A stretch of 64,000 nucleotides of DNA from Selenomonas sp. AB3002 (lineage in GTDB: Bacteria; Bacillota; Negativicutes; Selenomonadales; Selenomonadaceae), in the NCBI RefSeq assembly GCF_000702545.1, contig NZ_JNIO01000007.1, forward strand, positions 124,001 to 188,000, written 5' to 3'. The first letter of the stretch is position 1. Each line of letters opens with the position of its first letter. This document shows, piece by piece, positions 14,758-57,945 of the stretch. Under the pieces are notes generated by a model, which was not told the origin of the DNA, did not search any database, and saw nothing but the letters and a program-made list of their open reading frames with translations. A program made the position numbers and the translations under genes.

Positions 14758-16821
<2,064 letters not shown>

Positions 16822-16846
16822 CTATCATGCAAAAATCTATATAAAT

Positions 16847-17074: not shown

Positions 17075-17083
17075 GATGATACC

Positions 17084-18091: not shown

Positions 18092-18138
18092 CTTTCGTTC
18101 CCCCTTACATTCAGAAAACGAACTGAAAAGCAGTCTTT

Positions 18139-18301: not shown

Positions 18302-18349
18302 CTCTCATTGCATTATCGCCCAATAAAATCAATACCAACCTAAAGCCAA

Positions 18350-18495: not shown

Positions 18496-18514
18496 ATAGT
18501 TAAGTAAAACCTAC

Positions 18515-19645: not shown

Positions 19646-19693
19646 ATAAAAACCGCCTTTCTGCATAAATATGCAAGGCACTGATAATGCCTG

Positions 19694-19909: not shown

Positions 19910-19983
19910 AAGATTATCTCCTTGTAGAATTGCCATAACGATTATAACTGCCCTTAGTATGACAAGCGAAATTAGTAGACAAT

Positions 19984-20118
19984 ACCTGCCCCGTTTACGG
20001 GGAAGGTGGCAGCCGAAGGCTGACGGAAGGGGGGCTAGAGGTCGATAAGTTTGCCCTCGAAATCGCCCCTTCCACCGCCTAACGGCGGTCCCCCTCCCCC
20101 GTTTCACGGTGGAGGTAA
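19984..20118. repeat. Dispersed palindromic repeat, family B
   Basis: It runs ACCTGCCCCGTTTACGGGGA, GGTGGCAGCCGAAGGCTGAC, GGAAGGGGGG, then CGCCCCTTCCACCGCC and CCCGTTTCACGGTGGAGGT. Inverted ends and an internal hairpin are present. It lies between dnaN and yaaA. Confidence 0.8.
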
Positions 20119-20128
20119 TTTCAACTCG

Positions 20129-21241: not shown

Positions 21242-21280
21242 GGGCGTTCCTTTCTCTTTTGAAAATGGTTCATGAAATGA

Positions 21281-21311
21281 GAAAAGGGGCCTGACCTTGC
21301 AAGGGGCCCCC
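21281..21311 (-). terminator. Likely dnaA terminator
   Basis: GGCCCC pairs with GGGGCC across a 13-base loop and is followed by TTTTC on the minus strand, upstream of dnaN. It would end or attenuate dnaA transcripts after the origin segment. Confidence 0.5.
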
Positions 21312-21319
21312 GTGGTTTA

Positions 21320-21545
21320 GTTAATACTTATAGATTTATATTTTAAATAGCCGTCGTAGTAGTAGGGCCTGTGGATAGGTGGATAAGTGGCAGGAGCCCT
21401 ATAGCTTATGCACATTTCCACTGTTGATAAAGCTGTGGGAGTTTTGTTCCAGGTTATCCACATACTCACAGGGAAAAGAGGAAAAGGCAGTTATCCACAA
21501 TTTGCTCACAGAAATATACAGAGATAATCAACGGAGTTATCAACA
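21320..21545. other. oriC unwinding segment between dnaA and dnaN
   Basis: DnaA boxes lie at 21370-21378 (TGTGGATAG), 21422-21430 (TGTTGATAA), 21454-21462 and 21491-21499 (both TTATCCACA) and 21537-21545 (TTATCAACA). Next to the first box are GGCC and the DnaA-trio TAGTAGTAG (21357-21365), followed outward by an AT-only stretch at 21320-21350. This order (boxes, GC cluster, trios, AT-rich DNA) is that of the Bacillus subtilis unwinding site and marks where the strands should open. Confidence 0.88.
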
Positions 21546-21556
21546 GGTGCTGGCTC

Positions 21557-23065: not shown

Positions 23066-23104
23066 TCTGATGGTTTCCTTTCAATAATAAAAGCAAGATT
23101 CATG

Positions 23105-23304
23105 TTATCCACATGGTTATCAACAGCTGTGGATAACTTTCTGCACAGGCTGGAAAGCCCAGCAGCCACAAAGACCCGCAAGCTATCGCCTACGGGACTG
23201 TCCACAAAATATCAACAGTTATTTTATCAGAAAGACATAGAGTTATCAACAGGCAATCCACTAAAATCTGTGGATAATTCACAAAGAGAAGGCGGTTATC
23301 CACA
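23105..23304. other. oriC DnaA-box cluster upstream of dnaA
   Basis: Boxes are seen at 23105-23113 (TTATCCACA), 23117-23125 (TTATCAACA), 23128-23136 (TGTGGATAA), 23243-23251 (TTATCAACA), 23269-23277 (TGTGGATAA) and 23296-23304 (TTATCCACA). The region 23066-23538 holds no gene. With the dnaA-dnaN segment it makes a two-part origin, and the dnaA promoter should lie within it. Confidence 0.88.
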
Positions 23305-23421
23305 AAGTTTTACACTTTTCCACAATATATAGTGCTCTTATCCTTCAGAGCATATTTTAGGAAGATAAAATAATTCTCTTGGAATATGTTATAAATCATG
23401 CTTGACAAATGCAGGAAAGGC

Positions 23422-31204: not shown

Positions 31205-33319
31205 ATGACCATCAGCAAAGACCGCCTCATGCAGGGCATGCAGCGGTTTGGCGGCGCTATGTATACGCCGGTTATCTTGTTTGCTTTCTTCGGCCTTGCG
31301 GTGGCTATCTCCATCGTCTGCAAGAACGAAGGGCTCCTGGGCAGCCTGGCTGCCAAGGGCACTATGTGGTATGACTTCTGGTATGTGGTGGAGCAGGGGG
31401 CCTGGACGGTGTTCAGCCAGATGCCCATTCTCTTTGCCATCGCCGTGCCTATCGGCTTTGCCAAGAAGGAACAGGCCCGCTGCGCCATGGAGTCCTTCGT
31501 CATCTATATGATCTTCAACTACTTCATTTCCGGGTTCCTCACCCTGCACGGCGCTTATTTCGGCGTTGATTACAGTGTGGACGCTGGGGCAGGTACGGGC
31601 CTGGCTATGATTGCCGGCATCAAGACCTTGGACATGGGCATGCTGGGGGCCATCTTCATCGCCTGCACCACGGCCTGGCTCCACAATCGCTTCTATGACA
31701 CCAATATCCCCGACTGGATGGGGATTTTCAAGGGCCCTGCTTTCGTAGTGGCTGTGGGCTTTGCCCTGATGATTCCCGTGGCTTTCCTCTTCTGCATGGT
31801 CTGGCCGGCTATCCAGCACGCTATCATGCAGTTCCAGGATTTCCTCAAGACCAGCGGTCTGGTAGGCGTCTGGGCTTACACCTTCTCCGAGAGAATCCTT
31901 CTCCCGGCTGGTCTCCATCATTTCATCTATCTGCCTTTCATCTTTGGTCCTGCTGTCTGCGATGGCGGCATTCAGGCTTACTGGCTGCAGCACCTCAATG
32001 ACTTTGCGGTAAGCGGCCAGAGTCTGGCTGAAATGTTCCCCGAGGGCGGTTTTGCCCTCCACGGCAATTCCAAGATTTTCGGCCTGCCCGGTGCGGCACT
32101 GGCTATCTATATGTGCGCCAAGCCTGAGAAAAAGAAAAAGACGGCAGCGCTCCTCATTCCTGCAACTCTCACCGCCATGCTCTGCGGTATCACGGAACCT
32201 CTTGAGTTCACCTTCCTGTTTGTAGCACCTCTCCTCTATGCCGTACATGCTGTACTGGCTGCCTGCCTTGCTTCTGCCCTTTATGCAGCAGGACTGGCTG
32301 GCAACTTCGGCGGCGGCCTTATCGATGCTTTCGTGCAGAACTGGATTCCTCTCTTCCAGTATCATTCCGGCACCTACATTCTTCAGATTCTCATCGGCCT
32401 TGCTTTCACGGCCATCTACTTCGTGGTTTTCCGCACTCTGATTTTGAAATTCGACTATGCTACTCCTGGCCGCACGGCTGACGATGTGGAGGACAAGCTC
32501 TTCTCCAAGGCTGAGTATCAGGCCAAGAAGGAAATGGAAGAAATGGGTCTGGCTGACAATGCTCTGGCCATCAAGGCCAAGGTCTTCCTGGACTGCCTGG
32601 GCGGCCCAGAGAACATCAAGGAAGTCACCAACTGCGCTACCCGCCTGCGTGTGACGGTAGCAGATCCTGACAAGGTTGCTCCCGTGGGCAAGTTCACCAA
32701 GGCTGGCGCTTTCGGCCTGGTGAAGAACGGCCGCGCCCTGCAGGTAATCGTGGGCCTGTCCGTGCCCCAGGTACGCAGCTACTTCGATGCCCTGCTGAAG
32801 GGTGAAACGATTGAGGGGGCAGCTCCCGTTGCTGCCAAGTCCGAAGAAAATATGGACAGCAGCCTGGCCATGAAGCTCCATGCCTGCGTCACCGGACGCC
32901 TCATGGATATGACGGAAGTTCCTGACGATATGTTCTCCCAGAAGATGATGGGTGACGGCATTGCCATCGAGCCCATTGGGGATACGGTAGTGGCTCCCGC
33001 TGACGCCGAGGTCACCATGATCATGGAGGAAAGCCTCCACGCCATCGGCCTGCGCATGAAGAACGGCGCCGAGATTCTCATTCACATCGGCATCGACACC
33101 GTGAAGCTGAACGGCGAAGGCTTCCAGGCTCTGGTCAAGGCTGGTGACAAGGTAGCCGAAGGCACCCCGCTCATCAAGTTCGATAAAGAGGTCATCAAGG
33201 CCGCAGGCTACGGCACCACGGTTATCATGGCCGTGACCAACAGCGCCGACTACCCCCAGATGCAGAAGCATGAAGATGCAGAGGTAGTGGTCAGCGAGAC
33301 ACCGGTACTTGTTTTTTAA
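31205..33319 (+). CDS. PTS alpha-glucoside-type EIICBA transporter
   Basis: This 704-residue protein has an EIIC domain with about ten membrane segments (residues 1-430), an EIIB domain with the phospho-cysteine in 'TNCATRLRV' (Cys477), and a glucose-type EIIA domain with the phospho-histidine in 'EILIHIGIDTVKL' (His627). The glucosidase directly downstream and the similarity of 'RFGGAMYTPVILFAFFGLAV' to maltose/alpha-glucoside permeases suggest uptake of maltose, isomaltose or sucrose isomers. It is followed by the glucosidase after 15 bases, an operon. Confidence 0.92.
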   Translation: MTISKDRLMQGMQRFGGAMYTPVILFAFFGLAVAISIVCKNEGLLGSLAAKGTMWYDFWYVVEQGAWTVFSQMPILFAIAVPIGFAKKEQARCAMESFVIYMIFNYFISGFLTLHGAYFGVDYSVDAGAGTGLAMIAGIKTLDMGMLGAIFIACTTAWLHNRFYDTNIPDWMGIFKGPAFVVAVGFALMIPVAFLFCMVWPAIQHAIMQFQDFLKTSGLVGVWAYTFSERILLPAGLHHFIYLPFIFGPAVCDGGIQAYWLQHLNDFAVSGQSLAEMFPEGGFALHGNSKIFGLPGAALAIYMCAKPEKKKKTAALLIPATLTAMLCGITEPLEFTFLFVAPLLYAVHAVLAACLASALYAAGLAGNFGGGLIDAFVQNWIPLFQYHSGTYILQILIGLAFTAIYFVVFRTLILKFDYATPGRTADDVEDKLFSKAEYQAKKEMEEMGLADNALAIKAKVFLDCLGGPENIKEVTNCATRLRVTVADPDKVAPVGKFTKAGAFGLVKNGRALQVIVGLSVPQVRSYFDALLKGETIEGAAPVAAKSEENMDSSLAMKLHACVTGRLMDMTEVPDDMFSQKMMGDGIAIEPIGDTVVAPADAEVTMIMEESLHAIGLRMKNGAEILIHIGIDTVKLNGEGFQALVKAGDKVAEGTPLIKFDKEVIKAAGYGTTVIMAVTNSADYPQMQKHEDAEVVVSETPVLVF

Positions 33320-36047: not shown

Positions 36048-38909
36048 TCACTCTGGTTCCACGCCGAATCTTGCCTTGGCTTCTTCGATGAGTTTGGCGT
36101 AAAGTTCCATGGTGGGGCCATGGTTTTCTTTGATGTAGTCCAGGAAGGCCTGCTTTTCCTCCTCCGGGCCGTCCTGGATGGCATGGCCGGCCATTTCCAG
36201 GGCTTTGGCGGATTCGGAGAGTTTGACGCCGCCGATGGACAGGGAGGTGGATTTCAGGGCGTGGACGTGGGTGGTGTAGTCGGGGATGTTTTCTTCGTCG
36301 AAGTCCTTTTGCAGCTGATCCCGCACCAGCTGGTAGCGGGACACGTAGACCTGCAGGAATTTGAGTTGCATGGCCTCCATGCCGCCGCAGTATTTCATGG
36401 CGGTGGGCAGGTCTATCTGCTCGTCTTCCGGGTCGTAGCCGGCAGGGCTTTCGCCAGGTGTTTCGGCAGGTACTTCGGCAGCAGGGGCTGGGCCTGTTTC
36501 GGCACTGGTTTCAGCCGGAGCTGCTGTGCTGTCAGGGGCAGGGGCGACGGCAGCAGCGTGGTCTGTATTTGCGCTGCTGACTGTGCTGCTTACTGCACTG
36601 CTGACTGTGCTTTCCGCACTGCCGGGGCTTTCTGCCGGGGGCGTGACGGAGGGAGCGGCAGTGTCATCTGCCAGATGGCTTTCTCCGTGGGGTTCGTAGT
36701 AGTCGCTGTACTCAGCGTAGCTTTCTTCCTCGGAGAAGTCCAGTTCTTCCTTGGTGACGGGCAGTACCTTGTCTGCCGGCAGGAATTTCTGCACCACAGA
36801 TTCCAGGGTCTTGCCGTCTACGGGCTTGGAGATGTAGTCATCGAAGCCGTTAGCCAGGAACATTTCCCTGACGCCGGAGACGGCGTTGGCGGTGAGGGCT
36901 ACGAAGGGGGTCTTCTTGCACTTGCTGCCCTTGAGCTCTTTGGCCCGCTTCAGAGTTTCGATGCCGTCCATTTCCGGCATCATGTGGTCCAGGAAGACGA
37001 TGTCGTAGTGGGTGTCCTTGATGGCTTCCAGACATTCCATGCCGCTGAAGCAGGTGTCGATCTGCATCTGGGTCTTTTCCAGGAGGCTCTGCACCACGAT
37101 AAGGTTCATTTCCGTATCGTCTACCACGAGAATCCTGGCTTCGGGGGCGGTGAAGCTCTCCTGATAGGCTTCCTGCTGTTCCAGGAAGTCCTCGATGCGC
37201 TTCTTGAAGTCACCCATGGGCTCGTAGTGCTCTACCCGCTGGGGCAGGCGCACGGTGAAGGTGGAGCCTTGCCCGTAGGTGCTCTCTACGGAAATGGTGC
37301 CCTTCATCATCTGCACCAGGGAGGTGGTGATGGCAAGGCCCAGGCCTGTGCCTTCGATATTGCGGTTCTTCTTCATGTCCAGGCGCTGGAATTTGGAGAA
37401 GAGCTTTTTCTTGTCCTCTTCCTTGATGCCCAGGCCAGTGTCCTGGCAGATGAATTCAAGCTCCAGGGATTCGTCGGAAATGCCGTTGTCACCCACCTGC
37501 ACGGTGAAGGTGACGGAGCCTTTCGGCGTATACTTCACGGCGTTGTTGAGGATGTTCACCAGTATCTGGCGGAGGCGCACTTCGTCTCCGTGGAGGGAGT
37601 CGGGGATGGTGGGGCTCACGTTGATGTTGAACTCCAATCCCTTCTGCCCCGCCTTGTAGCTCACCATGTTGTAGATGTCGTTGAGGACTGAGCTCAGGCT
37701 GTAGCTCACGGGGATGATTTCCATCTTGCCGGACTCGATCTTGGAGAAGTCAAGGATGTCGTTGATGATGGCCAGCAGGGTTTCGCCTGCACTCTTCACG
37801 TTGTAGGCGTACTCCTTCATGGTGCCCTTGGCCTCGCGCATGATCATCTCGTTCATGCCCAGGATGGCATTGAGGGGCGTCCTGATCTCGTGGCTCATAT
37901 TGGCCAGGAAGTCGCTCTTGGCCTGATTGGCTCTGAGGGCATCGTCACGGGCTTCGCGCAACTCCTTGCTTTCCTCGGCATAGGCCTGGTTGGCGAAGGA
38001 GTAAAGGGTGAAGACGCAGAACAGCACCACCATGAGTCCGAAGACCCAGAGGATGATCAGGTGGATGTTCCTGATGCCGCCCACTACGGATTCCCACTCC
38101 ATGTAGCCGATGGCGATGAAGTTGGTATCCGGTACCCGGGAGGCAAAGAGCACATATTCGCCGTCTATGGTGGGGGTGTAGATGGCGGTGCTGTCAGTAT
38201 TGTCCAGATTTTTCAGAAGTTCCTCTATGCCCAGGGGGCTGCCTGTGCTTTCCACGTAGAAGCGGTTGCCAGGGCCGTAGTCCTGGAAGCGCACTACCAC
38301 CTTCTGCTTGTCCAGGTCGTACAGCAGGATATCCATGGACTGTTGCTTGTCGGAGAACTGGAAGAAGGAGGAGGGATTGCTCAGTTCCTTTTCCGTGTGA
38401 AGCCGGTAGAGTACGTAGCGGATATTGGCCCCTTCGTAGACGGGGACCATGGTGATGAGGCCGATATGGTCGTAATACTCCAGGGAGCCGTAGCCCTGCA
38501 CGGCCTTCACTCGCTGGAACTGGGAGCCTTCGGGCAGGGGATTGCCGCTGATGGTGTTGCCGTTGATATCCACCAGTCCTGCTGTGCCCATGTTGCCGCC
38601 CAGTACTTTGGCTACGTCCTGGGGGGGCATCTGGCCCAGTGTGATCAGGCGGGCTTCATCTTCCATCTGCTTGATGTCGCCCTTGAAAAGGCTGTCGTAG
38701 ACGGTGGAAATGAGGTGGCCCTGATGCTCGCCGAACCTGGCTACTTCGTGGTTCAGGGAATCGTTGATCTTGGTGTGCAGCAGGGTGCAGATTGCGATGA
38801 GCACCAACAGGAAGGCCAGGAACTGGGCCACGATGCGCAGGACGAAGGAGGCGGTCTTCTGCTGCGAAGTTTCGATGATCTTGTTGTTATCTTGATTCAA
38901 TGATCTCAA
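36048..38909 (-). CDS. Hybrid sensor histidine kinase with receiver and HPt domains
   Basis: This 953-residue protein has TM1 at about residues 24-44, an extracytoplasmic sensor of about 230 residues (Cache-like), and TM2 at about 282-304. HisKA follows with His340 in 'LANMSHEIRTPLNAILGM', then HATPase, with N box 'QILVNILNNAVKYTP' and G boxes 'DTGLGI' and 'GTGLGLAI'. The receiver has its phospho-Asp at 641 in 'VFLDHMMPEMDG'. An Ala/Ser/Pro linker (about 745-820) leads to an HPt with His883 in 'HALKS'. It is last in a five-gene leftward operon and overlaps the BMP gene by 23 bases. The external HPt partner may be the response regulator at 41375. Confidence 0.95.
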   Translation of the reverse strand: MRSLNQDNNKIIETSQQKTASFVLRIVAQFLAFLLVLIAICTLLHTKINDSLNHEVARFGEHQGHLISTVYDSLFKGDIKQMEDEARLITLGQMPPQDVAKVLGGNMGTAGLVDINGNTISGNPLPEGSQFQRVKAVQGYGSLEYYDHIGLITMVPVYEGANIRYVLYRLHTEKELSNPSSFFQFSDKQQSMDILLYDLDKQKVVVRFQDYGPGNRFYVESTGSPLGIEELLKNLDNTDSTAIYTPTIDGEYVLFASRVPDTNFIAIGYMEWESVVGGIRNIHLIILWVFGLMVVLFCVFTLYSFANQAYAEESKELREARDDALRANQAKSDFLANMSHEIRTPLNAILGMNEMIMREAKGTMKEYAYNVKSAGETLLAIINDILDFSKIESGKMEIIPVSYSLSSVLNDIYNMVSYKAGQKGLEFNINVSPTIPDSLHGDEVRLRQILVNILNNAVKYTPKGSVTFTVQVGDNGISDESLELEFICQDTGLGIKEEDKKKLFSKFQRLDMKKNRNIEGTGLGLAITTSLVQMMKGTISVESTYGQGSTFTVRLPQRVEHYEPMGDFKKRIEDFLEQQEAYQESFTAPEARILVVDDTEMNLIVVQSLLEKTQMQIDTCFSGMECLEAIKDTHYDIVFLDHMMPEMDGIETLKRAKELKGSKCKKTPFVALTANAVSGVREMFLANGFDDYISKPVDGKTLESVVQKFLPADKVLPVTKEELDFSEEESYAEYSDYYEPHGESHLADDTAAPSVTPPAESPGSAESTVSSAVSSTVSSANTDHAAAVAPAPDSTAAPAETSAETGPAPAAEVPAETPGESPAGYDPEDEQIDLPTAMKYCGGMEAMQLKFLQVYVSRYQLVRDQLQKDFDEENIPDYTTHVHALKSTSLSIGGVKLSESAKALEMAGHAIQDGPEEEKQAFLDYIKENHGPTMELYAKLIEEAKARFGVEPE

Positions 38910-39993
38910 CTCCCTTCACCAGCCAGTCCATCTGCCTCAGGAGATAGCTGTTGATAGCTTCTCCTTCCCTGCATTTTGCATTGCCGTATTGATCTATGAT
39001 ATTGCCTGAGAAAACCGGATAGCCGTCGTAGATTCTCTGCCTTGTCCTGATGGTCATGGCTTCTTCCTTGGGGGTGAGATTCCTGGCCAGCCGCAGTTTC
39101 ACCACTCCGTCCAGCATGCCCTGCCAATAGATATGGCTGCCCTCTTTCTGGAGGTTTTCCTGCAGCAGCCGGGTGAAGACCTGCTGCCAGTCCGTCTCGA
39201 CGGCGGCCAGGCAGTGTTCGGTCAGATGGCTTTCATTGGGGTGGAAGTCGATGTAGTCAAGGCCCTGGGCCTGGGCTTCATCGCCTGCGACGTGGGTGGC
39301 CTGGAAGTAGGTCATGACATCTGCTCCCGAGAGCTTCAGCTGGTAGACGGCTTCTTTTTCCCGCTGGGGGTTCATCCATTGCTGGGTCCAGCGCACCATC
39401 ACCCGGGCATCGGGGCGCACGCTCTGCACCCCCAGGGCAAAGGCATTGATATCCCGGCGCGTCTCGGGAGCCGGGAAGGGGGCCACATAGCCCACGATGC
39501 CGCTTTTTGTATGCAGGCCTGCCAGCACTCCTGCCATATAGCGCACTTCATAGTAGCGTACTGAGTAGCTGATCATATTGTAGGAAACCGCTTCGCCTAC
39601 AGAGTTGGCATAGAAGGTCACCTTGGGGTAAGCGGTGGCCAGGGGTTCCAGATTGTTCTGGTAGGTGGGGTTGGCCAGGAAGATGTACTTCACTCCCCGG
39701 TGCACCAGCTTGTCAACTACCTGAGAAAGGTTTTCAGGACTGATGTTGTCCTCGATGTAGACATCGTAGTCCAGCTTGTCGCAGGCGGACTGAAGGCCCT
39801 GGGCAATGTCTGCCGGCCAGCCCGGAGTTTCCTTGGTGGAGGCCAGTATAAGCGCGGCACTCTCCTTGTCATCCCTGGTTTCGTGGCCGAAATACTGGAC
39901 GGACAGGAAAATACAGATACAGACGGCCACAGCCTGCAGGATGCTCAGGATGCGGAAGCGGCGGGAAAGAAGATTATGGCTGCTGTTTTTCAT
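38887..39993 (-). CDS. BMP/PnrA-type periplasmic binding protein
   Basis: This 368-residue protein has an N-terminal membrane segment (residues 13-33) without a lipobox and a Bmp-type binding fold ('YIFLANPTYQNNLEPLA', 'AGVLAGLHTKSGIVGYVAPF'). PnrA relatives bind nucleosides for ABC import, but no ABC genes are present. The protein overlaps the kinase gene by 23 bases and the EIIC gene by 4, so it probably presents a ligand to the kinase. The uncleaved N-terminus suggests it is anchored in the inner membrane. Confidence 0.88.
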   Translation of the reverse strand: MKNSSHNLLSRRFRILSILQAVAVCICIFLSVQYFGHETRDDKESAALILASTKETPGWPADIAQGLQSACDKLDYDVYIEDNISPENLSQVVDKLVHRGVKYIFLANPTYQNNLEPLATAYPKVTFYANSVGEAVSYNMISYSVRYYEVRYMAGVLAGLHTKSGIVGYVAPFPAPETRRDINAFALGVQSVRPDARVMVRWTQQWMNPQREKEAVYQLKLSGADVMTYFQATHVAGDEAQAQGLDYIDFHPNESHLTEHCLAAVETDWQQVFTRLLQENLQKEGSHIYWQGMLDGVVKLRLARNLTPKEEAMTIRTRQRIYDGYPVFSGNIIDQYGNAKCREGEAINSYLLRQMDWLVKGVEIIESR

Positions 39994-41348
39994 ATCTCCC
40001 GCACCTCCTTGGGTGTGAGATCTCTGGTTTCTGTATCTTCACCATTTATGTCTTCCTCATGCTCCATCAGGTTGAAGATGATGACAAAGGGGGTGTAGAT
40101 GACGATATCCACACTGAGCCACACCAGCTGCAGCACCGCTCCCATGATATCTCCTGTGGCAATGACGCCGTCCAAAAGCACCGGGGCAAGGGAGCCGATG
40201 GAATGTTTGAACACCGGCACGATGCCTGAGCTGATGGCCAGATACCCGATGAGCACGTTGACCATGGGCGCCAGCACGTAGGGTATCAGGAAGAGGGGAT
40301 TGAGGACGATGGGCAGGGCGAAGAGGAAGGGCTCATTGATGGAGAGCACCAGGCTGGGCATACTGTAGGCAGAGATGCTGCGGAGCCTGTCCTTGGAGGA
40401 AAATACCCAGATGGAGATGGCCAGCCCCAAAAGGGACACGGACACCGCATCGAAGAACTCGCTGGTGAAGATGAACTTCGTCCCTTCCAGCTCGTTGGAA
40501 ATCTGGGCAGGCACATAGAAGGCCTCTGTCCAGGCAAAGGTCAGGCTGTTGCCGTTGAGCCCCAGCCACCAGAATATCCGCCGGAAGAATTCGTAGACCA
40601 TGGCGGAGAAGGGATGCTGGGCTATACTCTGGGAAAAGAGGGCGGCGAAGAGGCCGGGCATAGTGCCTATGACCTCCTCGAACAGCACCCAGCACAGCAC
40701 TACGGAAATGGAGACCAGGAAGGTGAAGGTCAGGGAAATGAGATGCCGCATGGAGTAAGAAAGCTGGGGAGAAAGCCCCATAGCCAGCGGCGTGCGCATC
40801 AGGGACACCTTGGAAAACTTCTTGAAAGCCTGCACCGTGGCAGTGGAGATGATCAGGGACAGCAGGAAGCCCCTGCCCTGGAAGTACATGGAGATGTTCT
40901 CCATGCCCTCATTGAACACTGCCAGCATGAAGACATAGCCCGAGATGGTGCAGAGACAGGCTAGTATCCTGTCCACTTCCCAGAGCTTGGCCAGCCTGTC
41001 CGTGAAGATCAGGGAGAAGATCATGTAGTAGAGGAAATTGGTGATGTTGAGATAAGCCGTGCAGGTAAGCATGATGTGGAAGAATTCAGAATCACGGTAG
41101 GTCTGGTCCCGGAGACCTCCGGAAAGGAAGGTGCCCAGTCCCAGCCCGTTCTCATCCATGACCGGCCCCAGGGGATTCAGTACCAGGTTGCCCACCATGT
41201 TGATGAGGGCCAGGATCATGATGAAGGGCATCATGATGCAGAAGGCTTCCCGCAGGGCCTGGAGATAGGGAATGGCCAGGAGGCGGCGGGTCAGGGGAAA
41301 GAGATAGGCCGCAAAGATGCCCTTTTGTAGTTTTTTTGACTTGTCCAT
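39990..41348 (-). CDS. Orphan PTS EIIC-like membrane protein (cellobiose/lactose type)
   Basis: This 452-residue protein has about ten membrane segments and the EIIC features 'PFIMILALINMVGNLVLNP', 'GLNGNSLTFAW' and 'INEPFLFALPIVLNP'. The acidic C-terminal tail ends 'TPKEVREI'. No EIIA or EIIB gene lies in the operon; all partners are signalling proteins. This suggests an EIIC used as a sugar sensor rather than a transporter, or one that borrows EIIA/B from elsewhere. It starts 26 bases after the response regulator and overlaps the BMP gene by ATGA. Confidence 0.88.
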   Translation of the reverse strand: MDKSKKLQKGIFAAYLFPLTRRLLAIPYLQALREAFCIMMPFIMILALINMVGNLVLNPLGPVMDENGLGLGTFLSGGLRDQTYRDSEFFHIMLTCTAYLNITNFLYYMIFSLIFTDRLAKLWEVDRILACLCTISGYVFMLAVFNEGMENISMYFQGRGFLLSLIISTATVQAFKKFSKVSLMRTPLAMGLSPQLSYSMRHLISLTFTFLVSISVVLCWVLFEEVIGTMPGLFAALFSQSIAQHPFSAMVYEFFRRIFWWLGLNGNSLTFAWTEAFYVPAQISNELEGTKFIFTSEFFDAVSVSLLGLAISIWVFSSKDRLRSISAYSMPSLVLSINEPFLFALPIVLNPLFLIPYVLAPMVNVLIGYLAISSGIVPVFKHSIGSLAPVLLDGVIATGDIMGAVLQLVWLSVDIVIYTPFVIIFNLMEHEEDINGEDTETRDLTPKEVREI

Positions 41349-41374
41349 GGGGCCTCCTTTCCGGCCTGCTTATC

Positions 41375-41815
41375 CTACAGTCCCAAATTATCAAGTGCTT
41401 TGAAGATGTCCTGTATCTCAGGGTCGTCAATGTCCGGAGCGATGTGTTTTTCTACCCTTGAAATCAGTTCCTCAGGGGTGAAGGGCTTCTTCACATAGTC
41501 CTTCACTTTAAGTTGGGCCGCCCGGACGATGGTGTTCTTGTCAGCCGCCGCCGTGAGGAAGATGACACTGATGTTTTTCCAGTTGGGGCGCTGGCGGATC
41601 AGGCTGAGGGTCTGGATGCCGTCCATGCCCGGCATGGCGATGTCCAGAAGGATAAGGTCGACTTTCCCCTGACGCTCCTGCAATATCTTCAGACAGGCTT
41701 GACCGGAATCCGCGGTGAGGTATTCTGCCTGTATCTTCATTTCCAATATGGTCTGGGCCATGGTGAGATTCATGAAATCATCATCTACAATCAGGATGAC
41801 TGGTTTGTAAGCCAT
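41375..41815 (-). CDS. Single-domain response regulator (CheY-like)
   Basis: This 146-residue receiver has the acidic pocket 'DDD' at residues 11-13, the phospho-Asp58 in 'LILLDIAMPG' and Lys in 'YVKKPF'. A short C-terminal tail replaces any output domain. In the operon it could receive phosphate from the HPt of the hybrid kinase and act by protein contact on the EAL-domain protein encoded just upstream. Confidence 0.92.
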   Translation of the reverse strand: MAYKPVILIVDDDFMNLTMAQTILEMKIQAEYLTADSGQACLKILQERQGKVDLILLDIAMPGMDGIQTLSLIRQRPNWKNISVIFLTAAADKNTIVRAAQLKVKDYVKKPFTPEELISRVEKHIAPDIDDPEIQDIFKALDNLGL

Positions 41816-41851
41816 GTGAAATACCCCCTTGGTAAGATGAAAGGCGAAATC

Positions 41852-44728
41852 TTATTCGCCGTTGCGCTCCTTCAAAAGCTCGATGAACTTGGCTTTGGGT
41901 ACCGGACGGGAATTCAGGAAACCCTGGCCCGTATGGCAGCCCATGGAGAGAAGCATCTGCTCCTGCTCCACCGTTTCTATGCCGCCCACCATCACATTGA
42001 GGCCCAGCTTTTGTCCCAGGACTATCATGCTGGACAGTACCTCCTTCATGCCGTCAGAGTTCTGGGCTGCGTAGAGGATGGAGGCGGAAATCTTGATGCC
42101 GTCCAGGGGAAGATAGTCAAGGAGAGTGAGGGAGGCTGCGCCTCCTCCGAAGTTGTCCAGGATTATCCCGTAACCGGCTTTGTGCAAAGAATCCATGAGG
42201 AACACGGCGTGGTCCCGGTAGGATTTCTGGTTGAAATTGGCAAACATGCTCTCGGGTATTTCCAGCTGGATGGTGCCCGGGGGCAGCTGGTACTTTTCAA
42301 TCAGGTCTTTCATGCGCCTGAGATAGCCATCTTCAGTGATGTGGAGCCGTGACTGGTTCACGCTGATGGGCAGGAGCTCCTGTCCGTTGGTGAGCCTGTG
42401 TTTCTGCACCATCATCACCTGCTTCAGGACGAAGTGGTCCAGGGGGATGATGAAGCCGTTCATCTCCAGGGAGGGCATGAATTTCTCCGGGGACAGGAAC
42501 CCCATTTCCTTGCTCTGCCAGCGGATAAGGCTTTCGGCGCCCACAATGCGGCGGGTCATGATGTCATACTGGGCCTGATACCAGACGGCGAACTCTCCGT
42601 CGGCAAGGGCCTGGCCCATGCTGCTTTCGATGTGCTGTTCCAGATGGAGGTACTTGTCCATCTTCTCGTCGTAGAGTTTCACGATGTCCATGGTGCCCAT
42701 GATTTTCCGGCAGGCCATGTCGGCCTTTTCCTCGGACATGAGCAGCATGGTATCGGACTTCATCTCGCAGAGACCCACCTTGATGTGCAGTGAAATCCGG
42801 GCAGAATCGTGCTCTATGTAGCCGTAGTGGTTCACGGCCTCAGCGGCGTTGCTGACCATTTCTTCCATGGTAGCGGCCTGGCAGACAGCCACCAGCTGCA
42901 GGGTGTTGATGCCGGCTGCTGTCTGCAGCACCCAGTCCTCCTCCTGCAGGTGCATGGCGGTTTCACGCAGGCGTTTGTCCAGGGAATGGCGGCTGTAGAG
43001 CTCCAGCATGGAGTCACGGCTGCTCAGGTCAAAGACGGCCACATAAATGTGGCTGTCCGGCTCCTGTCTGGTGGCTTCCTCCCAGATGCCCTTGATTTCC
43101 TGCTCCAGCCAGAGCATATTGGGCAGCTGGTAGCGGTTGTCCATATAGGCCATCTGCTGGATAGCCATCATATGGCGCCGCCTCATGTAGTAGCGGTAGT
43201 ACATGACGCCGATGATGAGGCCCATGATGACGAAGAGGCCCACGGTGGTCAGCAGGGGATAGTGGTAAATCATCCAGCGGGGAGAGAAGCTGTAGGCTAT
43301 CTCCGTGCCCTCCTGCAGGACCACATTCTGGGTGAAATTGGGGGGCAGGTGGGTGATTTCCTTGTCCAGGATGCGCCAGAGCCGGGGGTCAGCCTGAGTG
43401 CTGACACCCAGGCTGATATTTTCACGATAGAAGCTTTCGGTGAGAGCTTCCAGATTGTAGGTGAAAGAACCCTCCATAAGATAGGGGACTACCGACCGGG
43501 GGGCATAAGTCACATCGGCCCGGCCGTTGCTGACAGCCCGGAAACATTCTTCCATGGAGTGGCAGTAGATGATCTGGTTGGGACTGTAGTTTTCCTTGAC
43601 GGAAATCTGGGTGGGGAAAATCTCCTCAATGACTGCCACCTTGGGATTCTGGGGCAGGGGGAAGCCCTTGCGGATGATGGGGGTGTAGTCAATGGTGCGG
43701 AAAGACTGGGTGGGTGAAAGACCCAGCTCCTTCAGCCAGGAAAAATCGCAGGGCACGTCGGCTACGAAATCCACAGTACCTCTGGCAACGAGCCGCTTGA
43801 GGTTTTCCAGGGAGTCCCCTTCCACGATCTCAATCTCGATATCCAGGTCTTTTTCCAGCTGCTCCAGCAGGACGGCTGTGACGCCCTGCCATTCCCCGCT
43901 TTCCTCGTCCTTGTAGAGGAAGGGCTTGTGGGGCATATAGACTGCTGCCCGGAAATGCTTTTTCTGCTGCAGGAAGGCCCTTTCGTCTGGCTCCAGCACC
44001 AGGGGCAGGCCCTGGCTGCGGTCGTACTTGTCACGGAGCCGGTTGCGGATATTGGGCTGGTTCATCAGCAGCTGATCCATGGCATCGTTCACTTTGTTGT
44101 AGAGATCAGGACGGTCTGTGCGGATCAGCAGGCGGTAGCTCACTCTGTCAAAGAGGGCTACTACCCGGCCCTCATCGGGGGTCCTCAGCATGGGCGCCAC
44201 ATAACCGTCCAGCTGGCGGGCGGTGTAATGTATCTTCAGGTCTGCATAATCATGGAAGGTCACCAGCTCATAAGTGAAGGCATTCTCCAGAGCCACGGCG
44301 GGCAGGTTGGGGATGGGATAGCCGTAGTCCAATACGCCGATTCTCAGATGGCGGGAGGCCAGGTTCTCATGGAGCACAAGTTCCATGGGGAAGCGGGCCA
44401 CCACATGGTCTGTTCTTTTGGCAAAGGGCACGGTGGAGTAATCACCGGGCATGCCCGGGAGAATATCTATTTCGTTTTTCGACAGCTTGTCCACCGCTTC
44501 CCACCAGTTCACACAAGGAATGTAGACCATATTCCAGTTGCCGAAGCCAGCTAGGAACTCCATGTACTCGAAGCCTGAGCCAATCAGGTGGCCGGGGCTG
44601 TCCTCCTCCAGGAAGCCCGTCCCCGGCACATAGCCTACCCTCAGGTTCTCTGTGGCCTCAGCCTTGGGGATAAGGCAGAGAAAAAAGGCCAGCAGCAGGG
44701 CAAAGACAGCCCGCAAGTTTCTTCCCAT
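41852..44728 (-). CDS. Substrate-binding sensor with degenerate GGDEF and EAL domains
   Basis: This 958-residue protein has a signal segment and two tandem SBP_bac_3 domains (about residues 28-240 and 245-480; 'LRVGYVPGTGFLEE', 'FRAAVYMPHKPFLYKDEE'). A membrane helix lies near 490-510, followed by a GGDEF-fold region lacking the GGDEF motif, and then an EAL domain. Key EAL positions differ: 'ESLIRW' for EALLRW, 'LDNFGGG' for DDFGTG and 'IKIS' for LKID. Phosphodiesterase activity is therefore doubtful, and c-di-GMP or protein binding more likely. The ATG at 44728 follows GGGAGGGATTC. It is the first gene of the signalling operon. Confidence 0.92.
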   Translation of the reverse strand: MGRNLRAVFALLLAFFLCLIPKAEATENLRVGYVPGTGFLEEDSPGHLIGSGFEYMEFLAGFGNWNMVYIPCVNWWEAVDKLSKNEIDILPGMPGDYSTVPFAKRTDHVVARFPMELVLHENLASRHLRIGVLDYGYPIPNLPAVALENAFTYELVTFHDYADLKIHYTARQLDGYVAPMLRTPDEGRVVALFDRVSYRLLIRTDRPDLYNKVNDAMDQLLMNQPNIRNRLRDKYDRSQGLPLVLEPDERAFLQQKKHFRAAVYMPHKPFLYKDEESGEWQGVTAVLLEQLEKDLDIEIEIVEGDSLENLKRLVARGTVDFVADVPCDFSWLKELGLSPTQSFRTIDYTPIIRKGFPLPQNPKVAVIEEIFPTQISVKENYSPNQIIYCHSMEECFRAVSNGRADVTYAPRSVVPYLMEGSFTYNLEALTESFYRENISLGVSTQADPRLWRILDKEITHLPPNFTQNVVLQEGTEIAYSFSPRWMIYHYPLLTTVGLFVIMGLIIGVMYYRYYMRRRHMMAIQQMAYMDNRYQLPNMLWLEQEIKGIWEEATRQEPDSHIYVAVFDLSSRDSMLELYSRHSLDKRLRETAMHLQEEDWVLQTAAGINTLQLVAVCQAATMEEMVSNAAEAVNHYGYIEHDSARISLHIKVGLCEMKSDTMLLMSEEKADMACRKIMGTMDIVKLYDEKMDKYLHLEQHIESSMGQALADGEFAVWYQAQYDIMTRRIVGAESLIRWQSKEMGFLSPEKFMPSLEMNGFIIPLDHFVLKQVMMVQKHRLTNGQELLPISVNQSRLHITEDGYLRRMKDLIEKYQLPPGTIQLEIPESMFANFNQKSYRDHAVFLMDSLHKAGYGIILDNFGGGAASLTLLDYLPLDGIKISASILYAAQNSDGMKEVLSSMIVLGQKLGLNVMVGGIETVEQEQMLLSMGCHTGQGFLNSRPVPKAKFIELLKERNGE

Positions 44729-44813
44729 CTGAATCCCTCCCTGCAAGGATTTATTTGCAAGCGAAAAATTGCCAGTAAAAACCGAATTATTTGCCTTATT
44801 CTTCTAGCCTCGG

Positions 44814-44967
44814 GGTGGATAATCCTGCCTGTGGATAAAATCTTGAAAAAAAACACAGGGTTATCCACAAAACTGTGGATAACCCTGTGCATAGTGTGTA
44901 TAACCTGTGTATAAGCTGTGGAGTATGTGGATAAAATTGTGGAAAAGTGGAAGGATTTGTGGAAAAC
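44814..44967. promoter_or_regulatory. Dense DnaA-box cluster away from oriC
   Basis: Perfect boxes lie at 44830-44838 (TGTGGATAA), 44861-44869 (TTATCCACA), 44874-44882 (TGTGGATAA) and 44926-44934 (TGTGGATAA). One-mismatch boxes lie at 44814-44822, 44895-44903, 44906-44914, 44939-44947 and 44959-44967. The density exceeds that at oriC. The 44861-44882 pair is a palindrome. There is no clear DnaA-trio or AT-only stretch beside it. It occupies the 275-bp gap before the signalling operon and after the carbonic anhydrase gene start side, about 21 kb from oriC. Confidence 0.82.
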
Positions 44968-45003: not shown

Positions 45004-45561
45004 TCAGATAATCTTTTCCCCGTGGTACTTTTCCCCCCCGATTTCCGGGTAGACACCGTACTCTATGGCCCATTCGCACTTGTACTTGATGGCCTGGGCG
45101 TGGATGGTTTCGATCCTGTCCTGGGTGCGGACTACCTTGCCCGGCACGCCCACCACCAGGGAGTTGGGGGGGATGATGTCGTTTTCCTTGACTACCGCCC
45201 CTGCAGCGATAATTGAGCCGCGGCCGATATGTGCTCCCGTAAGCACCGTGGCGCTCATGCCGATGAGCACATGGTCCTCGATGACGCAGCCGTGAATGTT
45301 GGCCCCGTGGCCCACCGTCACATAATCCCCGATGATGCAGGGCTTGTCATCAGCCACGTGCAGGCAGGTGAGGTCCTGCACATTGCTGCACTCACCGATT
45401 TCTATATAACAGACATCTCCCCGGGCCACCACCCCGGGCCAGAGGGAGGAGTATTTGCCTACACGGACATCACCGGAGAGGAAGACCTGGGGTGCGACGA
45501 AACATTCTTCGTGAAGCTGAGGGCGCTTGCCCTTGAATACATTGTCTTTCAGAGTGAACAT
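45004..45561 (-). CDS. Gamma-carbonic anhydrase family hexapeptide-repeat protein
   Basis: This 185-residue protein is a left-handed beta-helix of hexapeptide repeats ('VRVGKYSSLWPGVVARGDV', 'VTVGHGANIHGCVIEDHVLI'). His residues at the zinc positions of the gamma-class ('HVADD', 'VGHGANIHGC') are kept. Relatives (YrdA, PaaY, Cam-like) bind zinc; not all have anhydrase activity. It is a single gene. Confidence 0.9.
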   Translation of the reverse strand: MFTLKDNVFKGKRPQLHEECFVAPQVFLSGDVRVGKYSSLWPGVVARGDVCYIEIGECSNVQDLTCLHVADDKPCIIGDYVTVGHGANIHGCVIEDHVLIGMSATVLTGAHIGRGSIIAAGAVVKENDIIPPNSLVVGVPGKVVRTQDRIETIHAQAIKYKCEWAIEYGVYPEIGGEKYHGEKII

Positions 45562-52990: not shown

Positions 52991-55477
52991 TTATGCCTCC
53001 ACCACGGCTGCTTCTTTCGGGGTGGTGGTCAGCTTCAGGTTGATGATGAACTCCGTTCCTTCCTCCGGGGCGGTGATGACTTTGATGGTGCCTCCCATGA
53101 GGTCTATGAGGTATTTGGTGATCATCATGCCCTGGGTGCGCTTTTCTTCTTCGGCGAAGATGCTTCTGTTTTCCTTTTCGATGAACATTTCCTTGGCATA
53201 GCTTTCGGACATGCCGATGCCGGTGTCCTGCACCCGCAGCTCATATTCGTTCTCATTTTCGGGGATGTGGGCCTTTTCACGCTCGGCGGGAGAAAGGGTG
53301 CTTTCCTTTTCCATCAGCATGACTACGATGCGGCCCCCGGACGGGGTGAATTTGTAGGAGTTGCTGAGGAGGTTCAGCAGGATTCTGGAGAGACGGTCAC
53401 CATCGCAGAGCACCAGGGGGTGTTCCACCTGGCTGATTTCCAGGGCGAAGGAGATATCCTTTTCTTTCATCTGCTGGGCGAAGGAATCCACAATCCGCTG
53501 CATCAGCTGGCGCAGGTCTGTGGGCTTCAGCCTGAGGTCAAAGGAGTTCTTGTCTATGTAGTCCACCTTTTGCAGGTCATTTACAAAGGCCTTGAGGTAG
53601 TAGCAGACGGACTGGATGCGGGAAAGGCAGTCGCAGAGCTGGCTGGTGACCTGCATATCGCAGTCCCCTTCGGAGAGCCTGAAATCCGCTCCTGCCTGCC
53701 GGGCAGCCCGCACATAGCCGGAAAGGGCTTTCATGGGCAGGCGTATGTCGTGGGATACGTTGGCCAGGAAGTTGCTTTTTACCAGGCTCACCTGACGTTC
53801 CTGCATCATCTTGATATCCATGAGCCGCTCGCGCTGCCTGATGCGGGTGAAGATATTTGACAGCAGGAAGAGGATGGTCATAATGAGCAACATCTGCACT
53901 ATGAGGTCAAAGGTGAGCTTGCTGTGGGCTTCGGCAAGCCTGCCCTCGGCGGCCAGTGCCAGCTGGTCTCCCGTGGACTGTCTGAGCCAGAGCCCCGTGG
54001 AGAAGAAATTGAGAAACATCAGGAGAATGGAGAGGGAGGCGGAGCGTCCGAAGTGGTTGAGGGTGTCCCGCTTGAAGATGTACCAGTAGTAGAGGAAGCC
54101 CAGGGTGCTCCAGACTGCCAGCAGGAGATAGGACTCCGTATTCAGGCTGCTGCCCAGCAAGAGATTGGGCAGGATGGGACAGAAGAAGAAGAACAGGGAA
54201 AAGACCATGCCCCCGATGCCCATCTGCACGCCGCGCTTGTCCCCATTCTTCCTGGCTTCCAGATAGTTGCAGAGGGACACGTAGCCGTAGGCCAGGGAAC
54301 CGCTGATGGTGATGACGTCCACCAGCCAGACAATGGCGGTGCGTCCCAGCAGGGGAATGGGCAGGGACATGGCGATGGTCAGGAACAGGGCATTCCTGGG
54401 CACGCCGTTGAGGTCGGTCTTGGTGAACTGCAGGGGCAGCAGGCCGTCTTTGGCCATGAACTGCAGCAGATAGGCGCAGGTGCGGTATAGCCCCAGGATG
54501 CAGGTGGCGATGCCGGAGAGCACAGCCACCCCCAGCACCCAGATGCCAGCCATGCCGTAGGTGCTGCCGATGCTGTGGAAGACCGGCAGGGAGCTCATGC
54601 CCTGCATGTGGCCCACGTTGTCTATGTAGTCCTTCCAGGAGGTGTACTCCGGGGGGACGCTGAGGATGGCCACGCCTATGAGCAGGGTGTAGGCCAGCAC
54701 GCCGCACACCACCGCTATGACTATCAGCGGGAACAATTTCTGCACGGGGAAGTGGAAGTCATCAATGGCATGGGTGACACATTCATAGCCGAAGAACATC
54801 CAGGGAGCCACCATGAGCATGGAAAAGACCTGCAGCAGTGGATTATTGTCCGGCTGGAAGGGGGGGAAAATTACAACATGGTGGTTAACAATACATAGTG
54901 ATACGAAAAGAAGGATAATGATAGAAATCAGAAGCAGGGCGAAGGCGGTGTAAAGGTGGCGCTTGAGCTTGCCCCCGTAGCAGGTGAATGCTCCGAAGGT
55001 GATGAAGACAATCCAGGTGGTGACTATCTCTCCGAAGTACACATCAAAGCCCGCCACTGTGTAGTGGAAGCCCCACTGCAGGAGACTGCCGAAAAGCAGG
55101 CGACAGAGCAACACCACGGCGGTGGCGTTGGCCCAGATGATGGAGAGATAGGTGATGAGGAGGGTCCAGGCCGCCAGGAAGGCATGGTCATGGCCCAGGA
55201 CGTTCTTGGTATAGGCATAGATGCCCCCGTTGCCCTGATACCTCACCGCCAGTTGGCAGAAATTGTAGCCGATGATCACCATGGAAATGCCGCCGATGAA
55301 GATGGCCAGGGCACTGCCTATGGGGCCGGCGTTGGGCAGGAAAAGGGTGCCCGGCATCACGAAGGAACCCCAGCCCACGGCGCAGCCAAAGGACAGGGCC
55401 CAGACATTGAGGGGATAGAGCAGCCGGTTCTTGACTGCATCGTGCATCCCGGGATTCTTGAATGTAACCATAGCCAT
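52991..55477 (-). CDS. Amino-acid permease (APC) fused to histidine kinase
   Basis: This 828-residue protein starts with a full APC transporter of about 12 helices (residues 18-495; 'VGWGSFVMPGTLFLPNAGPI', 'GNGGIYAYTKNVLG'). One more helix (525-542) is followed by a kinase core: HisKA with His576 in 'LANVSHDIRLPMKAL' and HATPase with 'LLNLLSNSYKFTP' and 'DTGIGM'. The last G box is worn ('RTQGMMI'), so ATP binding may be altered. The fusion resembles CbrA, but with an APC instead of an SLC5-type transporter. It follows its paralogue by 11 bases. Confidence 0.95.
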   Translation of the reverse strand: MAMVTFKNPGMHDAVKNRLLYPLNVWALSFGCAVGWGSFVMPGTLFLPNAGPIGSALAIFIGGISMVIIGYNFCQLAVRYQGNGGIYAYTKNVLGHDHAFLAAWTLLITYLSIIWANATAVVLLCRLLFGSLLQWGFHYTVAGFDVYFGEIVTTWIVFITFGAFTCYGGKLKRHLYTAFALLLISIIILLFVSLCIVNHHVVIFPPFQPDNNPLLQVFSMLMVAPWMFFGYECVTHAIDDFHFPVQKLFPLIVIAVVCGVLAYTLLIGVAILSVPPEYTSWKDYIDNVGHMQGMSSLPVFHSIGSTYGMAGIWVLGVAVLSGIATCILGLYRTCAYLLQFMAKDGLLPLQFTKTDLNGVPRNALFLTIAMSLPIPLLGRTAIVWLVDVITISGSLAYGYVSLCNYLEARKNGDKRGVQMGIGGMVFSLFFFFCPILPNLLLGSSLNTESYLLLAVWSTLGFLYYWYIFKRDTLNHFGRSASLSILLMFLNFFSTGLWLRQSTGDQLALAAEGRLAEAHSKLTFDLIVQMLLIMTILFLLSNIFTRIRQRERLMDIKMMQERQVSLVKSNFLANVSHDIRLPMKALSGYVRAARQAGADFRLSEGDCDMQVTSQLCDCLSRIQSVCYYLKAFVNDLQKVDYIDKNSFDLRLKPTDLRQLMQRIVDSFAQQMKEKDISFALEISQVEHPLVLCDGDRLSRILLNLLSNSYKFTPSGGRIVVMLMEKESTLSPAEREKAHIPENENEYELRVQDTGIGMSESYAKEMFIEKENRSIFAEEEKRTQGMMITKYLIDLMGGTIKVITAPEEGTEFIINLKLTTTPKEAAVVEA

Positions 55478-55488: not shown

Positions 55489-57945
55489 CTACTTAGGGGC
55501 CAGGGGCAGGGTCAGGCAGACGATGAACTCTGTGCCGCTGCCCTGTTCTGTAGTCACTTTGAGCTGACCGCCCATGAGATGGATGATGTTTTTGGCGATG
55601 TGGAGGCCGCGGCCCTGCTCCTCAAGCTCCAGGGCGGTTTTCTCGCCCTCGAAGGGGGCGTTGATCCATTCAAGCTCCTGGGGAGAGAGGCCCTTGCCAG
55701 TATCGTGGATGTGGACTTCGTAGTCAGCGTAGGTCTTGAAAGCCAGACGGCCCTGTTCTGTCTTGCGCAGATGGTAGCCCGGGCCGTTTTGGAGGAGGGT
55801 CACCATGACGCCGCCTCCCGGCTCCGTGTATTCATAAGCATTGCTGATGAGGTTCAGCAGCACCCGGGAGAGCCTTTCCTCGTCACATATCACCTGAGGG
55901 TCTGTGACCTTGCTGGTATCCACGCTGAAGTACAGGCGCTTTTCCTGCATCTGCTGGCCGAAAACATGGGACAGCACCTCGAAGGTGTGGCGGATGTCAG
56001 TCTCGTGCTCCTTCATCTTGATCTGGCCTCTTTCCATGCGCTCCATGAGCATCATGTCATTTATCAGGAAAGAGAGGTACTGGTTGAGGCTTACCACTTT
56101 TTCCAGCGAATCCCCCAGAGATTTTGGCACTTTGCGCTCGCAGGGCTGCTCGCAGACATAGCAGAGGGCGGACAGCTCCAGGGCCGTCTGCACATAGCTT
56201 TCCAAAGACTGCATGGGTATGCGCACATCATGGGAAATATTGGCCAGCAGGCTGTTCTTGGCCTTGCTGATGGACCTTTCCCGGAGCATCTGCACATCGG
56301 CGGCGTGCTCCCGGGATTTCAGGGTGGTGAAGATATCGCTCATGAGCACCAGGATGATGACGATGAGCCCCAGCTGCACCAGGGCGTTGAGGGAGAGGAG
56401 GCTGTAGCTGACATCTATGCCTTCCCAGGCCATGATGAGCTCCGCCTCTGTCCTCTGCTTGAGCCACAGGGAGGTGGAGAAGAAGTTGAGGAAGAGGATG
56501 ATGAGGCACATGGAGGTGGAAATGCCAAACCTGTGCTCTGTATCGTGCTTGAAAACATACCAGTAGTAGATGAAGCCAACAAGACTCCAGGCCGACAGCA
56601 GCAGGTAGGATTCCTGCTCCAGGCTGCTGCCCAGGAGCAGGTTGGGCAGGATGGGGCAGATGAAGAAGAACAGGCTCATTACCGCCCCCAGGAGACCAAG
56701 CCCCTGCCGCTGCAGGCTGCCCTCCTCTCTGGCCAGGAAAAAGGCGCAGAGGGAAACATAGCCGTAGGCCAGAGAGGCGCTGATGGTGGTGATGTCCGTC
56801 AGCCAGGCAATAGCCGTGCGTCCCAGGAAAGGCACGGGCAGGGACAGGGCTATGACCAAAAGCAGGGCCTTCTGGGGCAGCCCTTCCGGGCCTGTCTCGG
56901 TGAATCTCTCCGGCAGCATATTCTCAAGGGCCATGGCATGGAAAAGGTAGGCCGTGGCCCGGTAAAAGCCCAGCAGGCTGGTGGAGAGGGCGGCGATGAC
57001 AGCGGCACCCAAAAGCACCAGTCCGCCGCTGCCAAGCACTCCGTGGACGCTTTGGAACACTGGCAGGGAGGCAAGGCCCGTATGGGTGTGCAGCTCGTCG
57101 ATGTATTCAGTCCAGGCATCGTACTGCCCGGGCATATCCAGCACGGCGATGGCCGTCAGCAGGCAGTAGACCAGGGCGCCGGAGATGACGGCCCCCACCA
57201 CGATGGGATAGAGCTTTTGGGGAGAGAAATTGAAATCCTCGCTGGCATGGGTCACGGCTTCAAAGCCAAAGAACATCCAGGGGGCCAGCATCAGCATGGA
57301 AAAGACCTGCATGGGGGGGAAGGAATCCGGCTGGAAGGCCGGGGCAAAGACAGAGTGATGGGAATTGCCCATGATGCCCAGGAAAAGCCCCACCACGGAA
57401 AAGAGCAGGATGATGCCCAGCGCCGTGTGCAGGTGGCGCTTGACTTTGCCCCCGTAGCAGGCCAGCATGCCGTAAGCCACGAGAATCACCCAGGTAATGA
57501 GAATCTCCCCAAAGTACACATCAAAGCCCAGCACCTGATAGTGAAAGCCCCACTGGAGCAAATCCCCAAAGAGATAACGGGCAATTAGCACAAAGGCCGT
57601 GGCATTGGCCCAGATCAGGGACAAGTAGGCAAGGCCTAAAGACCAGGCCGCCAGGAATCCGTGGTCATTGCCCAGCACCTTGCGGGTGAAGGCAAAGATA
57701 CCTCCGTTGTCCGGGAACCGTTCCGCCATGACGCAGAAATTCTTGCCAATCACCAGCATGATGAGCGCCCCCAGCACCATGGCCGTGATGGTGCCGATAG
57801 GCCCCGCATTGGGCAGGAACATAGTCCCCGGCATGATGAAGGCACCCCAGCCGATGATGCCGCCAAAAGACAGCGCCCAGATATTCAAAGGATAGAGAAA
57901 GCCCTTATGCTCTTGTTCCTCTTCGGGAGTTCTTTCAAGTTCCAT
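55489..57945 (-). CDS. Amino-acid permease (APC) fused to histidine kinase, paralogue
   Basis: This 818-residue protein has the same plan as its neighbour: APC transporter (residues 16-495; 'IGWGAFIMPGTMFLPNAGPI'), extra helix (about 520-537) and kinase with His572 in 'LLANISHDVRIPMQS'. The HATPase has 'LLNLISNAYEYTEPGGG' and 'DTGKGLSPQE'. Both proteins retain transporter core motifs, so substrate transport or sensing through the APC part is possible. No response regulator gene adjoins. The divergent neighbour is a CstA transporter, a plausible target. Confidence 0.95.
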   Translation of the reverse strand: MELERTPEEEQEHKGFLYPLNIWALSFGGIIGWGAFIMPGTMFLPNAGPIGTITAMVLGALIMLVIGKNFCVMAERFPDNGGIFAFTRKVLGNDHGFLAAWSLGLAYLSLIWANATAFVLIARYLFGDLLQWGFHYQVLGFDVYFGEILITWVILVAYGMLACYGGKVKRHLHTALGIILLFSVVGLFLGIMGNSHHSVFAPAFQPDSFPPMQVFSMLMLAPWMFFGFEAVTHASEDFNFSPQKLYPIVVGAVISGALVYCLLTAIAVLDMPGQYDAWTEYIDELHTHTGLASLPVFQSVHGVLGSGGLVLLGAAVIAALSTSLLGFYRATAYLFHAMALENMLPERFTETGPEGLPQKALLLVIALSLPVPFLGRTAIAWLTDITTISASLAYGYVSLCAFFLAREEGSLQRQGLGLLGAVMSLFFFICPILPNLLLGSSLEQESYLLLSAWSLVGFIYYWYVFKHDTEHRFGISTSMCLIILFLNFFSTSLWLKQRTEAELIMAWEGIDVSYSLLSLNALVQLGLIVIILVLMSDIFTTLKSREHAADVQMLRERSISKAKNSLLANISHDVRIPMQSLESYVQTALELSALCYVCEQPCERKVPKSLGDSLEKVVSLNQYLSFLINDMMLMERMERGQIKMKEHETDIRHTFEVLSHVFGQQMQEKRLYFSVDTSKVTDPQVICDEERLSRVLLNLISNAYEYTEPGGGVMVTLLQNGPGYHLRKTEQGRLAFKTYADYEVHIHDTGKGLSPQELEWINAPFEGEKTALELEEQGRGLHIAKNIIHLMGGQLKVTTEQGSGTEFIVCLTLPLAPK

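Follow-up and report, generated by a model that had tools for sequence, protein, structure and literature searches.

In a five-gene operon of Selenomonas sp. AB3002, an EIIC protein that lacks a key active-site residue and the partners that power such permeases has probably been turned into part of an environmental sensor. Comparison of 48 loci shows that its gene belongs to a conserved core, EIIC-BMP-hybrid kinase, usually with the gene of a lone receiver in front. We favor, with some confidence, a model in which the three core products form a composite membrane receptor made of an anchored BMP-family binding protein, a hybrid kinase with a dCache sensor, and EIIC as a co-sensor or scaffold, whose output would most likely be c-di-GMP.

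Organization of the operon and its products

The window, i.e., the whole 64,000-nucleotide stretch of DNA analyzed here, contains the five genes on the minus strand, and our open reading frame listing placed them where the original prediction had them (Table 1). The gaps of 36 and 26 bases and the overlaps of 4 and 23 bases given there were also correct, and we infer that the genes are co-transcribed. Domains were called from Pfam and NCBIfam profile matches, which largely confirmed the predicted content: SBP_bac_3 and EAL, a receiver, PTS_EIIC of the lacE/celB type, Bmp, and HisKA-HATPase-REC-HPt. The HPt match scored slightly below the Pfam cutoff, and its HxxLK motif is intact. The reading frame of the SBP-EAL gene spans 41852-44746, with its best start at ATG 44728, after GGGAGG. 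For the kinase, a second TTG (38900) is a more plausible start than that at 38909, being better spaced from AAGGGAG; with this start, the overlap with the BMP gene shrinks from 23 to 14 bases.

Table 1. Features of the operon and of the region directly upstream (window positions)
Feature	Position	Strand	Description
Hybrid histidine kinase	36048..38909	-	TM1, dCache sensor, TM2, HisKA, HATPase, REC, long linker, HPt; 953 aa from TTG 38909
BMP/PnrA-family binding protein	38887..39993	-	N-terminal membrane anchor; 368 aa
EIIC, lactose/cellobiose type	39990..41348	-	Without EIIA/EIIB; ChbC His250 replaced by Asn, Glu334 kept
Single-domain response regulator	41375..41815	-	Phosphorylation site intact; short C-terminal tail
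SBP-EAL protein	41852..44728	-	Tandem SBP_bac_3-type sensor, TM, degenerate GGDEF, EAL without D2 and E352 equivalents; not constant across loci
Terminator-like hairpin and T tract	44853..44890	-	17 bp; between the operon and gene 45004-45561
Cluster of eight DnaA-box matches	44830..44966		Directly upstream of the operon

The periplasmic region of the kinase, which the earlier description had left out, was modeled as a dCache domain (AlphaFold2, mean pLDDT of 84.7), and Foldseek matched the model to the dCache domains of histidine kinases and chemoreceptors. A binding-protein gene is thus coupled to that of a membrane hybrid kinase with a periplasmic sensor, and the two genes overlap in nearly all loci. 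TM2 of the kinase is far better conserved than the dCache domain (mean pairwise identities of 59% and 35%, respectively), which fits a membrane contact; the adjoining, well-conserved catalytic core could explain part of this conservation. A FIST-domain hybrid kinase with an HPt domain is encoded near one module locus (L125:3012-6200).

The binding protein belongs to the BMP/PnrA family (PF02608, E = 1e-27; 6pi5, E = 1e-36), and its nearest relatives of solved structure, AtzT (6pi5) and 3s99, bind purine bases. The guanine site of AtzT, with its stacking Trp, a Glu, and guanine-reading residues (PMC6834077), was used for comparison. In the alignment, the equivalents of AtzT Glu165 and Trp194 are kept as E177 and W206, and those of Ser97, Asn218, and Asn220 are replaced by Asn, F230, and A232. 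We therefore do not propose guanine itself as the ligand, as the protein shares the stacking Trp and one Glu with AtzT but not the residues that read guanine. No permease or ATPase gene for BMP-type ABC uptake was found among the open reading frames of the operon. A complete glucose-type PTS permease, EIICBA (31205-33319), is encoded on the opposite strand at a distance of about 3 kb, outside the operon.

Directly upstream, two of the eight DnaA boxes make up the arms of the terminator-like hairpin. DnaA boxes also lie upstream of four loci of the same genus (L033-L036; four to seven boxes each), and none were found upstream in the other loci examined. The window also contains the replication-origin region (14758-23324), with the order dnaA, dnaN, recF, gyrB; clusters of DnaA boxes flank dnaA on either side. 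The cluster next to the operon, about 21 kb from the origin, is a possible site of DnaA titration or a DnaA-controlled promoter.

A conserved EIIC-BMP-kinase core in the Selenomonadaceae

Searches with EIIC, in relatives first and then in 380 genomes of the class, identified 48 loci with a module-type EIIC, which all fall within the Selenomonadaceae and are spread over many genera, although many of the genomes are closely related and the counts given here are thus not of independent events. One locus was found by a contig scan in a Selenomonas ruminantium MAG, the nearest named relative of the window's genome. Outside the family, a search of 398 genomes of the phylum with the BMP profile gave no module-level score.

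The EIIC gene is followed by that of the BMP protein in 43 of the 48 loci; in 42 of these, the kinase gene comes next. This core had been overlooked in the original prediction. The exceptions to the EIIC-BMP-kinase order are contig ends (L061 and L151) or an EIIC gene standing apart: among the five loci without BMP after EIIC, L061 reaches the end of its contig, and the other four (in genomes G222, G223, G226, and G237) have an unlinked EIIC, with a module-type BMP-kinase pair kept elsewhere in each genome. The lone receiver precedes EIIC in 36 loci, the 12 without it belonging to genus g12 and to one g28 genome. The gene arrangement is not due to chance, because it recurs in many genera of the family. 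No metabolic gene is constant in these neighborhoods; the flanking genes vary by genus, and the unit is therefore kept for itself.

The binding protein and the kinase might form a LuxP/LuxQ-like receptor on their own, EIIC being a passenger or a membrane chaperone without a sensory role. BMP-hybrid kinase pairs without EIIC indeed exist in the window's own genome (L176) and in relatives (L178, L179, L180, and L181), some of them with two BMP genes. However, the EIIC frame is intact and of single origin, its fold residues are conserved across many genera, and the gene is retained alongside BMP and kinase even when unlinked. A passenger role is distinctly unlikely in our estimation, and we favor EIIC as a part of the receptor.

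Loss of the catalytic histidine and of the EIIA and EIIB partners

The EIIC protein scored above the cutoff for PF02378 and matched TIGR00410 with an E value of 5e-38, yet below the curated cutoff of that profile. ChbC was its best match, both by sequence and by fold in a structure model. His250 of ChbC lines the phosphorylation site together with Glu334 and is conserved in all of the 20 reference PTS EIICs. Of the 49 module EIICs, 47 carry Asn, Pro, or Phe at this position, that of the window having Asn. Despite this change, the structural Gly, Pro, and Asn positions of the module EIICs are unchanged; Glu334 is kept in 35 of the 49.

EIIA and EIIB genes of the lac/cel type are found in none of the 48 module loci, whereas each is present in 21 of the 23 PTS loci, where they flank the sister EIICs. 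The earlier statement that the genes needed for uptake are missing is thus borne out for both the BMP and the EIIC proteins. Nine module-bearing genomes contain no PF02255 or PF02302 match at all. EI was detected in 12 of the 13 genomes tested, including these nine, and its presence rules out total loss of the PTS in them.

In a tree of 67 EIICs, those of the module form one clade (support of 99) beside a PTS clade, and the sister EIICs of ordinary PTS operons are approximately 34% identical to them. EIIC-EAL fusions and an EIIC-kinase fusion (L149) form a second clade, also with a support of 99. As the module and fusion EIICs form separate clades, EIIC seems to have been recruited into signaling at least twice in the Negativicutes. 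The EIIC-EAL fusions (L081, L136-L148, L154, and L155) are common and occur in several families of this class, without EIIA or EIIB nearby, and they mostly keep the catalytic His250. The EIIC-kinase fusion is a single 1107-aa frame with PTS_EIIC, HisKA, HATPase, REC, and HPt domains (L149:972-4292), present in one MAG only; a search of relatives for a family of such fusions returned this single example, from G049. Being on a single MAG contig, with an EIIC from the other recruitment, it backs the principle but not the present complex.

The original prediction had named two observations that would argue against a signaling role of EIIC and BMP, namely, a neighborhood conserved in no relative and EIIA/EIIB genes consistently attached to this EIIC elsewhere. 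Neither was made; the conserved neighborhood, the absence of EIIA and EIIB, and the loss of the catalytic His rather argue that both proteins are signaling and not uptake parts. EIIC might nonetheless still be a permease, either a facilitator or a PTS subunit that borrows EIIA and EIIB, with the kinase system regulating it or sensing its flux. Its fold model matches ChbC, and with Glu334 retained in most module EIICs, substrate binding or uncoupled transport remains conceivable. EI is present in most of the genomes, the module EIIC might conceivably make use of a foreign EIIB, and the window's genome has EIIA and EIIB genes on other contigs. The near-universal loss of His250, the nine genomes devoid of any lac/cel EIIA or EIIB, and a unit lacking a constant metabolic gene make a permease unlikely.

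An SBP-EAL protein probably in decay

The SBP protein is encoded in 24 of the 48 loci, in the operon or divergently, and is thus undetected as a whole in about half of them; its EAL domain is present in 13. Of the two substrate-binding domains originally attributed to it, only the second was matched by Pfam (SBP_bac_3), the first resting on a reading of the sequence. The GGDEF and EAL domains are worn, as had been noted. GGDEF gave no Pfam match in the window; the domain is degenerate in all orthologs, none of which retains the motif required for a diguanylate cyclase. In EAL, DDFG has become DNFG and the glutamate of AEG has become Gly, so that the catalytic set lacks D2 and the equivalent of E352, with the other residues (E, N, E, D, K, and Q) kept. 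The same two residues are missing in L033, L034, L035, and L036. The set is complete in L039-L045, and the domain is gone in L046 and in the g16 loci L037, L038, and L116-L123. We predict that EAL is inactive in the window's clade, where it looks like a former phosphodiesterase in decay, the SBP part staying.

In the chain proposed originally, HPt would pass its phosphate to the lone receiver, which would then switch the SBP-EAL phosphodiesterase. The phosphorylation site of the receiver is intact, the genes are adjacent or divergent, and some loci have a complete EAL set, as described above. However, EAL is predicted to be inactive, or is absent, in the other loci listed, the SBP protein is variable, and the receiver is missing from 12 of the 48 loci although EIIC is kept. 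Such a chain is not supported as the basic route, and we consider it unlikely.

Probable outputs and a proposed composite receptor

With 7 EAL and 16 GGDEF matches in the window's genome, a c-di-GMP network is likely to be working there. An HD-GYP regulator gene directly follows that of the kinase in L050. In L179 and L180, the gene of an HD-GYP response regulator adjoins the BMP gene, in front of the BMP-kinase pair. These ties to the kinase family, missed in the original prediction, suggest c-di-GMP control as an output and make HD-GYP regulators the obvious candidate targets of these kinases. On the basis of these neighbor genes, c-di-GMP is the most likely output. In L054, a CheB-like gene, recognized from its sequence, comes after the kinase gene.

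The sequences themselves establish the domains present, the order of the genes and their conservation, the lost residues, the lack of EIIA and EIIB, and the single origin of EIIC. On this basis we propose a composite receptor, with a putative physical complex, ligands, direction of signaling, and output. The anchored BMP protein would bind a small ligand and present it, in the periplasm, to the kinase's dCache domain. EIIC, beside the membrane helices of the kinase, would act as a co-sensor or scaffold for a second, sugar-like ligand or for the state of the membrane. Phosphate would pass from HisKA to REC and HPt. In loci with a lone receiver, HPt would then donate it to that protein; alternatively, further receivers, for example those of HD-GYP regulators, would accept it. 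The end effect would most likely be on c-di-GMP and, through it, on motility or attachment. The SBP-EAL protein of the window's clade would probably be a noncatalytic accessory. More tentatively, the module may represent an undescribed class of receptors in which a BMP-dCache hybrid kinase has a nonphosphorylating PTS EIIC as its obligate subunit in the membrane, which would allow the kinase to combine the BMP ligand with a sugar-like cue.

Relation to known systems

LuxP/LuxQ and TorT/TorS consist of a periplasmic binding protein and a hybrid kinase. They resemble the module in that a binding protein is teamed with a hybrid kinase in the membrane that bears a receiver and phosphorelay parts; the module differs by its membrane-anchored BMP-family protein, its EIIC gene, and its stand-alone receiver. 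In UhpC/UhpB, a transporter homologue likewise senses for a separate kinase, but UhpC is an MFS protein, whereas the module has an EIIC plus a binding protein. In LevQRST of Streptococcus mutans, two binding proteins, a kinase, and a regulator form a single sugar-sensing complex (PMC3043104). Binding proteins thus act with a kinase and a regulator there as well, but none of the four components is EIIC-like and the output is transcriptional (PMC3043104). In CbrA and CrbS, a transporter domain is also coupled to a histidine kinase (PMC13022988, PMC9100948); theirs is fused and of the SLC5 family, whereas the module has a PTS EIIC encoded as a separate protein. According to a review, PTS_EIIC domains occur in c-di-GMP proteins but are rare there (PMC8846402). 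The use of EIIC in c-di-GMP signaling would be common to both, but there the EIICs are domains within proteins, and the EIIC-EAL fusions found in the Negativicutes belong to a clade separate from the module EIICs. Finally, RmcA resembles the SBP-EAL protein by having an SBP_bac_3 sensor on a protein of c-di-GMP turnover, but it is an active phosphodiesterase (PMC8846402), whereas GGDEF and EAL are degenerate in the window's protein.

Binding proteins paired with kinases and transporter-derived sensors are thus already known. In an open-licence collection of papers, we found no published account of the module, of EIIC with kinases, or of BMP proteins with kinases, nor, thus, of the EIIC-BMP-kinase combination. 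If the model is true, the module would illustrate cleanly, against a well-defined sister group, how a subunit of a PTS permease can give up catalysis and join a kinase receptor, a switch that UhpC and CbrA have shown for other transporter families. The sequences reveal the altered active site, the lack of partners, and the joint retention of the genes. The module would also offer a sensor amenable to testing in a family that is common in the rumen and gut but little studied for its signaling.

Another type of transporter-kinase fusion is found in the same 64-kb window, where two tandem proteins (52991-55477 and 55489-57945), encoded beside CstA, combine APC amino-acid permeases with histidine-kinase ATPase domains.
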